NCBI RefSeq assembly: GCF_900108185.1 | Contig: NZ_FNVA01000004.1 | Coordinates: 186,001 to 250,000 of the forward strand | Source: Bryocella elongata | Lineage (GTDB): Bacteria; Acidobacteriota; Terriglobia; Terriglobales; Acidobacteriaceae | Length of the DNA: 64,000 nt | Direction of reading: 5' to 3' | Shown here: piece by piece, positions 39,199 through 41,917 of the stretch | Position numbering within the stretch: position 1 is the first letter of the stretch | Layout: the number at the start of each line of letters is the position of its first letter | The notes under the pieces: model-generated | What the model saw: the letters and a program-made list of their open reading frames with translations, nothing else | Databases searched by the model: none | What the model was told of the DNA's origin: nothing | Translations under genes and position numbers: made by a program

Positions 39199-39595
39199 TT
39201 AGGTGGTCCGCTGGATGAAATATAGCGTTCGATAACTCGCGACATAACTCAAATATCTGTCCCAGATTGATACACCAGAAGGCCGCCCTCTCCGGGCGGC
39301 CTTTGCTGTTTTCGATCCAGGATTCGCCGACGCGATGAGGCGCTACACCAAGATTGCAAAAAGTGTCAGCAAAATCCTTCTAATCATCGCCTTTACGCAA
39401 CATGTCGTATCGCCTGCGTTGGATTAACCCCGGATTCTCTACTCCTTTCTTCTCTTCGCGATAAGCGTCATTTCGCTGCTCGTCTGAACGCGTTGTTTCG
39501 CCAGCGCAACAGATTGCGGAAATCAAAGAGAAAAGTGAACTTAGCTCCCTACTCTCCGACTCGAGCGCGATACGCGCCGACTAGGAGAAAGAGCA
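39199..39595. other. Spacer upstream of the small-peptide operon
   Basis: A 397-bp gap. It begins with the thyX terminator (39279-39303) and continues with about 280 bp of more AT-rich sequence (pyrimidine runs near 39440-39470) leading to the AGGAG ribosome site of the peptide gene at 39583-39587. This is the expected promoter region for the peptide operon; I cannot fix -35/-10 boxes with confidence. Confidence 0.45.
39279..39314 (+). terminator. Rho-independent terminator of thyX
   Basis: AAGGCCGCCC, loop TCTCC, GGGCGGCCTT, then TTGCTGTTTTC: a perfect 10-bp stem with a T-rich tail, 80 bp past the thyX stop. Confidence 0.85.
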
Positions 39596-39769
39596 ATGCA
39601 GAAGAATATTTTTCGTAACCTCGGTCTGGTACTTACGCTGGCAGCTGTACTTGCTGCCCCTCTCAAGTCATTCGCCGATGACCCAATTGTTGGCGGCGGC
39701 AATCCCGATCCGGGACCTGGCGGTAGCAGCGATGCCATCGCGCTGGTGCTCGCACTGGCGACCGCGTAA
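39596..39769 (+). CDS. Small secreted peptide, 57 aa, operon leader gene
   Basis: An intact short gene with AGGAG eight bases before its ATG and a TAA stop. The product starts with a classical signal peptide, MQKNIFRNLGLVLTLAAVLA then APLKSFA, cleaved probably after SFA. The mature part of about 30 residues begins DDPIVGGGNPDPGPGG and ends with the hydrophobic SSDAIALVLALATA. It has a Gly/Pro-rich head and an apolar tail, no Cys. The stop lies three bases before the ATG of a seven-helix membrane protein gene, so the two are cotranslated. Similar tiny Gly/Pro-rich exported peptides may exist in related acidobacteria; no function is known. A pheromone or signal-ligand role is a hypothesis. Confidence 0.72.
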   Translation: MQKNIFRNLGLVLTLAAVLAAPLKSFADDPIVGGGNPDPGPGGSSDAIALVLALATA

Positions 39770-39772
39770 ACT

Positions 39773-40594
39773 ATGCGTCGTAGGCCGCCCGACGCGGGCA
39801 GGCGGAAGGCGAGGCGCCACCGGTTGCATCTTCTCGAGGGGATCGATTACGCTTTCTGGCTCCTTGGTTTTTGTTCCCAACTTATGTTGCTGGGAGTGCT
39901 CTTCGCGCGAGACCGCGCGAAGAGCTTTCCAGTTTTTACGTCGTGGATTCTGGTCGGCGCCGTTCGGGATGTTGTTCTGTATCTCGTCCATCGCTACGCG
40001 CTGCACGCTTACTTCAATACGTTCTGGGCCTTCGGATCCATCGATGTCTGCCTGCAGCTCGGAGTCTTCTTCGAGATGGCATTCAAGGTGTTTTGCCCGC
40101 TTGGCTATTGGGCTTCCGATGTGAAACGCGGGTTCCAGCTCGTGCTTGCGGGTAGCTTCCTGGTTGCTCTGCTTTTGACCTGGACAGCGCATCCTTATTC
40201 GCGTGGAACCATTGCCATCGTGGTCCACAAGATGGACTTTTTCTCGTCGGCACTCCTGAGTGAGTTATTTCTGGGGACGCTGATCCTATCTTCGTGGGCT
40301 GGGTTGCCCTGGAAGACTCACGTGGCGCGTATCTCGCAGGGCCTTGGAACGTTCGCGGCGATCGGTCTTATTACGCAGGGAGCCCACACGCAGCCCTCGA
40401 GCAGCAACCTGACCGTGTACTTTTTCTGGTCGCACGTGGAGATCTTCTTTTATCTCTGCTGCATGTCGTACTGGATCGTGACACTTTGGCGGGAGGCAGA
40501 GGCCCCTCGCGAATTACCTGATAAGATTCGCGAAGAGCTTGCACACCTCAACCGTCTCCTGACGTTTGGGGGTGGAGGGAGCACAAGGCAATGA
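39773..40594 (+). CDS. Seven-transmembrane-helix protein of unknown function
   Basis: A 273-aa integral membrane protein. After a basic N-terminus (MRRRPPDAGRRKARRHR) about seven helices follow: FWLLGFCSQLMLLGVLFA, FTSWILVGAVRDVVLYLVH, a long FNTFWAFGSIDVCLQLGVFF region, FQLVLAGSFLVALLLTW, LLSELFLGTLILSSWAGL, GLGTFAAIGLITQGA and FFWSHVEIFFYLCCMSYWIV, then a charged cytoplasmic tail. I recall this type (FPVFxxY after helix I, a VxxxYEIF-like segment in helix III) as an expanded acidobacterial family without assigned function. Position between the secreted peptide and an anchored partner suggests a receptor or exporter. Confidence 0.78.
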   Translation: MRRRPPDAGRRKARRHRLHLLEGIDYAFWLLGFCSQLMLLGVLFARDRAKSFPVFTSWILVGAVRDVVLYLVHRYALHAYFNTFWAFGSIDVCLQLGVFFEMAFKVFCPLGYWASDVKRGFQLVLAGSFLVALLLTWTAHPYSRGTIAIVVHKMDFFSSALLSELFLGTLILSSWAGLPWKTHVARISQGLGTFAAIGLITQGAHTQPSSSNLTVYFFWSHVEIFFYLCCMSYWIVTLWREAEAPRELPDKIREELAHLNRLLTFGGGGSTRQ

Positions 40595-41145
40595 ACGCTG
40601 AGTTTTTTTTCATTGCGATGATCGTTCTTGTAGCCGCCATGGCTGGGGTGGCCTTCTGGTTCATGCAGAGGGCTCGTCGCCGGGACGCCGCTACATGGGA
40701 GAGCCTGATCGCGAGGCTTGAGCCGGTCAACCGCCGTGCGGTCGCCGCCATCGCGCTCGACCTTTTCGATGAATCCGGCACCCGGAGAAGCGGAACGGAC
40801 AGCGACCTGCTGGATCCGTCCGAGGTCTGGGACATGATTGGTGGGCTCACCGGGCTTGAAGCGATGGAACGTAACTGCGCTGTGCTGATCGACATCGCGG
40901 CGCACGTGCAGCGCTGGTATCCGGAAGCCGTCGTTGTGGCAGAGCAACTTCGCTTGAACGCGCGCGAGGTGCAGTTTCATCTCGGCCGCCTGAAGGGGGC
41001 TGCCCGGACCGGAAATCTGCATAGCGCCTTCGCGGACTATGCCCAGCGTGCTGTCGCAACGTATTACAGGATGACCCGCAGTGTTCTGGCGCTTTGCGAG
41101 CACGCCCATGCTCCTGGGCTGATGGCGCTCGAGAAAGCGATTTAG
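40591..41145 (+). CDS. Membrane-anchored helical protein, partner of the 7-TM protein
   Basis: A 184-aa protein whose ATG overlaps the stop of the 7-TM gene by 4 bp (ATGA). One N-terminal helix (FFFIAMIVLVAAMAGVAFWFM, residues 5-25) is followed by RARRR, a stop-transfer signal that keeps the rest in the cytoplasm. The soluble part is mainly helical, with the conserved-looking VWDMIGGLTGLEAMERNCAVLIDIAAHVQRWYPEA and EQLRLNAREVQFHLGRLKGAARTGN, DYAQRAVATYYRMT. No known domain or catalytic motif. Tight coupling argues that it forms a complex with the 7-TM protein, perhaps as its cytoplasmic output (inference). Confidence 0.75.
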   Translation: MNAEFFFIAMIVLVAAMAGVAFWFMQRARRRDAATWESLIARLEPVNRRAVAAIALDLFDESGTRRSGTDSDLLDPSEVWDMIGGLTGLEAMERNCAVLIDIAAHVQRWYPEAVVVAEQLRLNAREVQFHLGRLKGAARTGNLHSAFADYAQRAVATYYRMTRSVLALCEHAHAPGLMALEKAI

Positions 41146-41185
41146 GGGGCGCCGGTTTGCAGCGTCGCCCCGGGACGGACTGCTG

Positions 41186-41917
41186 CTACGAAACCCGCCG
41201 CAGCGCGACACCCGTTACCGTTCCGATGACCTCGATCTCTTTGCGATACTTCCAGCGCCGGCTGGACTCGTAAGAGAGCGGATGCGGAACGAGTGTGAGC
41301 CAGGTGGACTCCTTGTCCAGCTCACAAAAACCAGTCACATAGCCGTCACGGGTGAGCAGGAAGTAGATGGGGCGATCGAATTCGCTCGTCCACTCCCGCC
41401 GATGGGCGATGGCCCTCTTCTGCGTATCGATGAGGACGATCGAGCCGGGACGGATCATCGGCTCGAGGGTGCGATCGCGCTGGCCGACGACGCCTCGGCG
41501 CAGCGGACTGCTACCGTTCCCGTTCTCGCTGGGTAGAAGCATGGTTTCGGCCGGCGGGGTTTCCGTGACGAGGGTGTCAGGAAGCCATGCGCGCGCGTGG
41601 TCATTCAACGGGCCTTCGGAGAGCAGAAGCGTAGCGTTGGGGCTCGAAACGGGCTCGACGGACTCCGCCGGTGGACTTGGGGGGCAGAGCGCGAGCATCT
41701 GATCGGGATTCAATCCGTAGACCGCAGCAAGCACGATGAGCTTCATCGCGGAGAGATCGCGGTTCTCCCGCTCCACACGGTCCAGCCAGCTTGCGGAGAT
41801 CCGGTATGCCGGATTGTTCCACTGCTGGGCGAGGCGCTGAGTGCGCTCCTCTACCTCTCTCAAGGAGAGCTTCCAGTGATTCCGGATCGTGCGCAGTTTT
41901 CCGCCGAAACCGTCCAT
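41186..41917 (-). CDS. XRE regulator with degenerate S24/LexA-like C-terminal domain
   Basis: A 243-aa protein. The N-terminal HTH covers residues about 5-72: LRTIRNHWKLSLREVEERTQRLAQQW then YRISASWLDRVERENRDLSAMKLIVLAAVYGL. After a Pro/Ser-rich linker, a C-terminal domain resembles peptidase S24 (RTLEPMIRPGSIVLIDTQKRA, then IYFLLTRDGYVTGFCEL). In active S24 proteins the nucleophile is Ser in a GDSMEP-like box and a Lys follows; here the Ser position reads Thr (RTLEP) and no Lys is at the expected place, so self-cleavage is unlikely. It converges on the peptide operon 40 bp away and may control it. I recall this architecture as common in Terriglobia. Confidence 0.8.
   Translation of the reverse strand: MDGFGGKLRTIRNHWKLSLREVEERTQRLAQQWNNPAYRISASWLDRVERENRDLSAMKLIVLAAVYGLNPDQMLALCPPSPPAESVEPVSSPNATLLLSEGPLNDHARAWLPDTLVTETPPAETMLLPSENGNGSSPLRRGVVGQRDRTLEPMIRPGSIVLIDTQKRAIAHRREWTSEFDRPIYFLLTRDGYVTGFCELDKESTWLTLVPHPLSYESSRRWKYRKEIEVIGTVTGVALRRVS

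Follow-up and report, generated by a model that had tools for sequence, protein, structure and literature searches.

In the Agr, ComQXPA and Rgg/PlcR quorum-sensing systems, a short exported peptide is encoded beside a membrane protein and a helix-turn-helix (HTH) regulator, and in fungi the mating factors act via seven-transmembrane (7-TM) receptors. Acidobacteria are among the commonest bacteria of soils. Passages of a review (PMC7661733) describe their quorum sensing via acyl-homoserine lactone genes. In fungal precursors processed by Kex2, one secreted protein contains a short peptide several times over, in tandem and almost without change (PMC7329392). Here, in a 64,000-nucleotide window of the Bryocella elongata genome (contig NZ_FNVA01000004.1, positions 186,001 to 250,000), we describe a locus that shares the bacterial arrangement, in which the gene of a short signal-peptide precursor is followed by those of a 7-TM protein and of a membrane-anchored helical partner, and is accompanied by that of an XRE-type HTH regulator (Table 1).

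Linkage of these genes across relatives, the repeat structure of the precursors and the selection acting on them show that a defined short exported peptide goes with the 7-TM/anchored pair. Judged from sequence, the locus looks like an undescribed chemical-signalling system in soil acidobacteria. The initial annotation of this DNA, which had proposed a candidate peptide, membrane and regulator module, knew of no described system with this gene set, and none was found in the open-access literature searched.

Conservation of the locus

Loci were read in 100 stretches chosen among the listed profile matches, mostly the top ones and hence non-random, from which 128 unique 7-TM genes (by their first 300 nt) were retained and divided into a close clade (7-TM profile E<1e-80, window included, n=26), an intermediate clade (n=64) and distant or weaker matches (n=38). 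Signal peptides were called with a home-made heuristic rather than SignalP, and related loci are non-independent. Maintenance of the peptide upstream of homologous 7-TM genes had been set beforehand as a refutation test of the module: a signal-peptide open reading frame (ORF) stood directly upstream in 26/26 close loci (window included) and, among loci with at least 420 nt upstream, in 48/59 intermediate and 19/37 distant ones. The intermediate count rises to 53/59 with five long multi-copy precursors; in all, six such precursors (L104, L110, L111, L125, L156 and L161) exceed the length limit of the count. Over all loci, a peptide with a ribosome-binding site (RBS) was present in 49/64 intermediate loci, and a peptide in 19/38 weaker matches. 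The peptide ORF is commoner than chance upstream of 7-TM genes: among the 122 genes whose upstream sequence reached 420 nt, 93 were preceded by a signal-peptide-like ORF with an RBS (P-x-P following the signal peptide in 90), compared with 17/360 other long-ORF starts (3 with P-x-P) and 27/1249 random positions (8 with P-x-P) in the same loci.

The tight coupling of the 7-TM and anchored genes, claimed from the window alone, was likewise seen in relatives, the anchored gene lying directly 3' of the 7-TM gene in 25/26 close and 62/64 intermediate loci and in 5/38 of the weaker matches. Genes of the anchored family are rarely found apart from a 7-TM gene: the anchored profile gave 16 matches in 12/60 genomes, 14 of them directly after a listed 7-TM match, another about 400 nt after a 7-TM gene (G035) and the last in G091. 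The regulator was present in 25/26 close loci, on the opposite strand, and the distance from its end to the preceding gene had a median of 42 nt (3-91 nt in 22/25; 182, 393 and 644 nt in the remainder); the single close locus devoid of it offers only 756 nt 3' of the 7-TM gene.

The 7-TM family is spread through one acidobacterial class, with little elsewhere in the phylum. A single-sequence search matched 16/61 genomes, a six-sequence profile 302/398 genomes of the own family and a 39-sequence profile 155/250 genomes of the class, while across the phylum the latter matched 32/247 genomes, 25 of them of the own genus or family and seven weakly (best E 3e-9); these genome counts refer to 7-TM matches, peptides having been checked in the fetched loci only. 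A single-sequence scan of a contig collection returned no relative, and an alignment-based scan returned 15. Named relatives belong to Granulicella, Edaphobacter and Silvibacterium, Acidicapsa and metagenome-assembled genomes (MAGs). One contig labelled as a Rhodanobacteraceae (gammaproteobacterial) MAG, L047, has the complete four-gene set, for which misbinning of an acidobacterial contig is a likelier explanation than transfer.

In 16 loci from other families of the class (L214-L229), a signal-peptide precursor preceded the 7-TM gene in 12/16, a downstream gene of about 180 aa with one N-terminal hydrophobic helix was recognised by eye in 15/16, and an XRE regulator of the same family, by hidden Markov model (HMM), occurred in 12/16; the close-clade anchored HMM matched none of these 16 loci. 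The XRE gene lay upstream on the same strand in 9/12 and convergent downstream in 3/12 (L219, L224, L228), so that its association with the locus outlasts rearrangement. The genome of B. elongata itself carries three 7-TM genes, each with a different upstream peptide, and no XRE match was found beside either of the two others (L212, L213).

Peptide precursors: repeated cores and selection

The first six aligned peptides share the motif V-x-G-x-x-P-x-P, and short G/P-rich cores recur across systems (VVGGTDPEP, VTGTDPEP, MGGSNPRP, FGGNPHPQ, SGSDPRP, PGGNDPPP, ADGGDPVPP), those of the other families of the class being mostly of the ADG-x-x-P-x-PP type. Such cores are repeated in 38/114 precursors, with at least 3.5 copies in 13 (L027, L030, L034, L133, L164, L171 and L176 were left out of this analysis by hand, and the six long precursors added by hand). 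Copy numbers reach about 24 in L156 (15-residue unit), about 12 in L110 and L111 and about nine in L161, and L021, from the same genus, has two. In L156, L110 and L111 the precursor ends in the repeat itself, these long multi-copy forms carrying no terminal hydrophobic tail; such a tail is frequent in single-copy precursors and is present in the short repeat precursors L149 and L152. In the L024 precursor an internal stretch is imperfectly duplicated (VVTGGDPQPSGD occurs twice), and this form appears to stand midway from single- to multi-copy precursors.

The repeat unit itself is the functional element under selection. Between copies, synonymous differences per site (pS) amounted to 0.334 and nonsynonymous ones (pN) to 0.021, a pN/pS of 0.06 in which pN is lowered by the recognition of units through amino-acid similarity; synonymous against amino-acid differences were 25 to 0 in L160, 15 to 0 in L158 and 30 to 0 in L104. 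Such a pattern is not expected from recent duplication alone and indicates selection on the peptide unit. Between species, pN/pS over close pairs was 0.39 for the mature part (summed over those of 63 non-independent pairs with a 7-TM pS <0.72), 0.29 for the signal peptide and 0.24 for the 7-TM protein, the mature part thus evolving faster than the other two and yet being clearly constrained. Codon-level purifying selection on the peptide, whose lack the initial annotation had named as a ground for rejecting the module, is thus found both between species and between repeats. Cores vary between systems and copies inside one precursor agree, as expected for a defined ligand.

Judged by eye, A-x-A sites resembling those of signal peptidase seemed to fit some repeats only (e.g. 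L160, L174) and were dropped as a general feature; none of the listed repeat units has a dibasic Kex2-type site. Units such as GPGDPSPIGH in L098 and L102 resemble plant CEP/CLE-type signalling peptides, probably by chance among short P/G/H peptides.

Properties of the encoded proteins

AlphaFold2 models the 7-TM protein as a bundle of seven TM helices with a further helix at the C-terminus (predicted local distance difference test score, pLDDT, 86.4; predicted template modelling score 0.82), and the loop charges fit a predicted topology with the N-terminus out and the C-terminus in. Over an alignment of 39 diverse members, only P36, F38, E84 and G173 are invariant, and no invariant Cys, His or Arg nor any protease-type set was found. 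Inner loops are the best conserved (2.24 bits), and within the TM helices conservation falls from the inner (1.76) through the middle (1.48) to the outer thirds (1.32). Searches of Pfam, NCBIfam, PADLOC and PDB sequences returned no family for this protein or for the anchored one, nor for the precursor in those that took it in (the PDB sequence search did not), PADLOC giving a single match at chance level. Among the 50 PDB matches listed by Foldseek, 49 are G-protein-coupled receptors (GPCRs) or rhodopsins (E 0.06-0.9, query TM-score <=0.54). The model thus weakly resembles such bundles, which conveys little beyond the seven-helix arrangement since these folds abound in the PDB.

The anchored protein is modelled as a TM helix followed by a helical bundle (pLDDT 86.2). 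The regulator of the window matches HTH_31 slightly below its cut-off (E 7e-06; 26.7 bits against 27), its profile has a single match in its own genome, and among 28 relatives (E<=1) HTH_31 was recognised in 26 and HTH_3 in 17, in keeping with the HTH identity first proposed. The further label of a degenerate S24-type regulator found no such backing, as the Pfam peptidase S24 model matched none of the 28 relatives at E<=1. Many of them have a T-[ML]-x-P stretch, presumably standing where the S24 motif S-M-x-P would be, and L047 has S at that Ser position. No component of the system other than the HTH domain falls in a family found by these tools.

Gene layout and upstream elements

The features of the locus are collected in Table 1. 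The precursor ORF, the 4-bp overlap of the 7-TM and anchored genes (ATGA, 40591-40594) and the convergent regulator 40 bp beyond the anchored gene (41145 to 41186) are all present as first annotated. The 7-TM ORF is real as well, and its start was probably misplaced: homologues begin with M-H-L or M-Q-L and align with the TTG at 39824, which has GAGG 9 nt upstream and leaves a spacer of about 54 nt after the peptide gene, comparable to the close-clade median of 50 nt, so that translation probably begins 51 nt after the ATG at 39773.

Table 1. Features of the Bryocella elongata locus, with positions counted from the first nucleotide of the window
Feature	Position	Strand	Basis and remarks
Signal-peptide precursor, 57 aa	39596..39769	+	Signal peptide, then core IVGGGNPDP and hydrophobic C-terminal tail; kept upstream of 7-TM genes
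7-TM protein, 256 aa from probable TTG start (ATG 39773 a possible ORF start)	39824..40594	+	Homologue starts, AlphaFold2, topology
Anchored partner, 184 aa, predicted single N-terminal TM helix and cytoplasmic helical bundle	40591..41145	+	4-bp overlap with 7-TM gene
XRE/HTH_31 regulator, 243 aa, C-terminal domain in no Pfam family	41186..41917	-	Convergent
Dyad GTTTC-N6-GCAAC, candidate regulator operator	39495..39510	+	About 100 nt upstream of peptide start; position and motif match
TACTCT, -10-like hexamer (consensus TANNCT)	39550..39555	+	Upstream-region alignment; putative role, from position
GCGCG-ATA-CGCGC hairpin, just 5' of Shine-Dalgarno	39565..39577	+	Probably near transcript 5' end

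Upstream regions show conserved elements. In an alignment of 50 of the 94 upstream regions (A8; near-duplicates dropped, the others chosen in part for a hairpin visible by eye), a TANNCT -10-like box is followed by a GCGC hairpin that stands immediately 5' of the Shine-Dalgarno. This hairpin occurs in 62/94 regions against 0.6 expected from shuffles, and its covariation in A8 is modest (80.8% of cells paired vs 75.7% in shuffles; 18 double changes vs 9.6). It has no Rfam match in the window and is perhaps an mRNA-stabilising or translation-control element. The hairpin was also observed in clades lacking the XRE gene.

A further element, a GTTTC-N6-GNAAC dyad scoring at least 9/10, was found in 21/32 XRE-adjacent loci (17/21 at -94 to -103) against 5/61 loci without XRE, a contrast that is non-independent because these very sequences served to define the motif by eye, and that weakens at a score of at least 8 (29/32 vs 35/61). 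In the window, GTTTCN6GNAAC has one exact match, at 39495-39510, where 0.27 were expected.

Neighbouring genes

Among ORF clusters present in at least 6/124 loci, the 7-TM (124), anchored (98) and XRE (31) genes stand foremost, the others looking like antisense shadows when inspected by eye, or being neighbours found in 6-13 loci. Inspection of these recurrent neighbours by eye, and of ten representatives by Pfam, revealed no kinase, ABC exporter or Agr/ComQ-like gene; those ten include a LuxR-type response regulator, an M13 peptidase and ordinary housekeeping enzymes. In 8/124 loci (L026:2593-3336 and seven others) the LuxR-type and 7-TM genes are about 2.3 kb apart. In 7/124 loci (L144:976-3072 and six others) the 7-TM gene is preceded, at a distance of about 2.5 kb, by the gene of a secreted M13 (neprilysin-type) peptidase, which may reflect chance synteny or a peptide-processing or -degrading partner in that clade.

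Proposed mechanism and alternative explanations

We propose that a Sec-exported precursor, with a single core or up to about 24 tandem copies, would give rise, in the periplasm or in the cell's surroundings, to short peptides rich in G and P, and that these would bind the genomically adjacent 7-TM protein. Binding would alter the conserved cytoplasmic face of this protein, from which the signal would pass to the helical protein that is anchored in the membrane and co-translated with the 7-TM protein. The adjacent XRE regulator would, in some clades, control the peptide operon via the upstream dyad. To this model as a whole, an exported peptide sensed by a 7-TM protein with an anchored partner and XRE control in some clades, we attach an even chance of being right. 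It is supported by the better conservation of inner loops and inner TM thirds than of outer TM thirds, by the cohesion of the peptide, 7-TM and anchored genes in the loci read, by the repeat units and the selection on them, by the distinct peptide upstream of each of the three 7-TM genes of the own genome, and by the tie between XRE and the system (25/26 close and 12/16 other-family loci), the dyad occurring mainly where XRE is present.

Several observations weigh against it. The regulator is scarce in two of the groups of loci (3/64 intermediate and 4/38 distant), and no candidate maturation protease accompanies the whole system among the neighbours of the 124 loci, M13 being limited to seven. 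In a distant 7-TM subfamily (L030, L164, L171, L176) no peptide was found and another gene stands directly upstream, coding for a putative secreted phosphoesterase (with QENRSFDNLFNGFPGAD or a close variant). Outer loops and ends of the 7-TM protein, at 1.60 bits (13 columns, start Met included), are not its least conserved parts, and peptide residues showed no preference for covariation with its outer-face columns in four tests (p 0.56, 0.05, 0.18 and 0.38; 66 peptides, some with the core misplaced by the pattern). Neither the 7-TM model nor the anchored protein had a Foldseek match at E<=0.001, and the latter had no family match above cut-off. Tailed single-copy precursors, finally, may stay in the membrane. 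The original reading of ligand, receptor and output has come through the conservation and selection tests, while its assignment of roles stays conditional, with a null covariation result and a regulator scarce in intermediate and distant loci.

Of the alternatives, the one that survives best, unlikely as we consider it, is that the peptide, rather than being a diffusible signal, serves as a small subunit, structural or regulatory, in a membrane complex of the 7-TM and anchored proteins, such as a transporter or stress sensor, its tail holding it in the membrane and its G/P core acting in place. The constant coupling of the three genes, the hydrophobic ends of many single-copy precursors and purifying selection on the mature part all suit a subunit, but precursors that end in the repeat (L156, L110, L111) better fit the release of equal peptides, with the caveat that L149 and L152 keep their tail. 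The peptide, which is secreted, variable and encoded next to a membrane protein, and which differs among the three 7-TM genes of one genome, could also be a bacteriocin-like antimicrobial with the 7-TM protein, alone or with the anchored protein, as immunity protein; the wide and non-patchy presence of the 7-TM family (302/398 family genomes), the retention of a short core and the lack of any PADLOC match besides the chance-level one make this quite improbable. Short P/G-rich cores are, moreover, not typical of pore formers. About equally improbable is a 7-TM enzyme that processes or anchors the peptide, exosortase-like or an intramembrane protease, for which one dedicated target next door and the close-clade V-T-G-T-D-P-E-P with its hydrophobic end, which we liken to a short sorting signal, can be cited, but which has against it the restricted set of invariant residues, the absence of exosortases and proteases among the Pfam matches and the tail-less long multi-copy precursors.

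Comparison with known systems

Several described systems share part of the features of the locus. The acidobacterial regulators have an N-terminal HTH_31/HTH_3 domain in common with S24-type (LexA/CI-like) XRE regulators, and differ from them in lacking a Pfam S24 match. PEP-CTERM/exosortase systems resemble the close clade in combining P-E-P with a hydrophobic C-terminal stretch, whereas the locus has no exosortase match and no catalytic set, and includes tail-less long multi-copy forms. Unlike Agr, ComQXPA and Rgg/PlcR, it combines a Sec signal peptide, tandem multi-copy precursors and a 7-TM protein in no Pfam family.

The secreted precursors with tandem near-identical copies are shared with the fungal repeat precursors (PMC7329392). 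The present system is bacterial, however, with no Kex2-type dibasic sites and no PDB sequence match or significant fold match. Like the fungal mating factors with their receptors, the acidobacterial system has a 7-TM membrane protein. Tentatively, and with somewhat less than even confidence, we suggest a class-wide peptide-pheromone system convergent with the fungal mating factors, in which multi-copy secreted precursors, 7-TM receptors unrelated to known bacterial sensors and a dedicated anchored transducer, joined by an XRE regulator in some clades, would form parallel channels within single genomes. A class-wide peptide and 7-TM family of this kind would offer a testable chemical language for hard-to-grow bacteria, and synthetic peptides could be tested at once, as the likely mature unit can be read directly from the repeats. 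If true, it would represent a bacterial counterpart of the peptide/7-TM logic that fungi and animals use.

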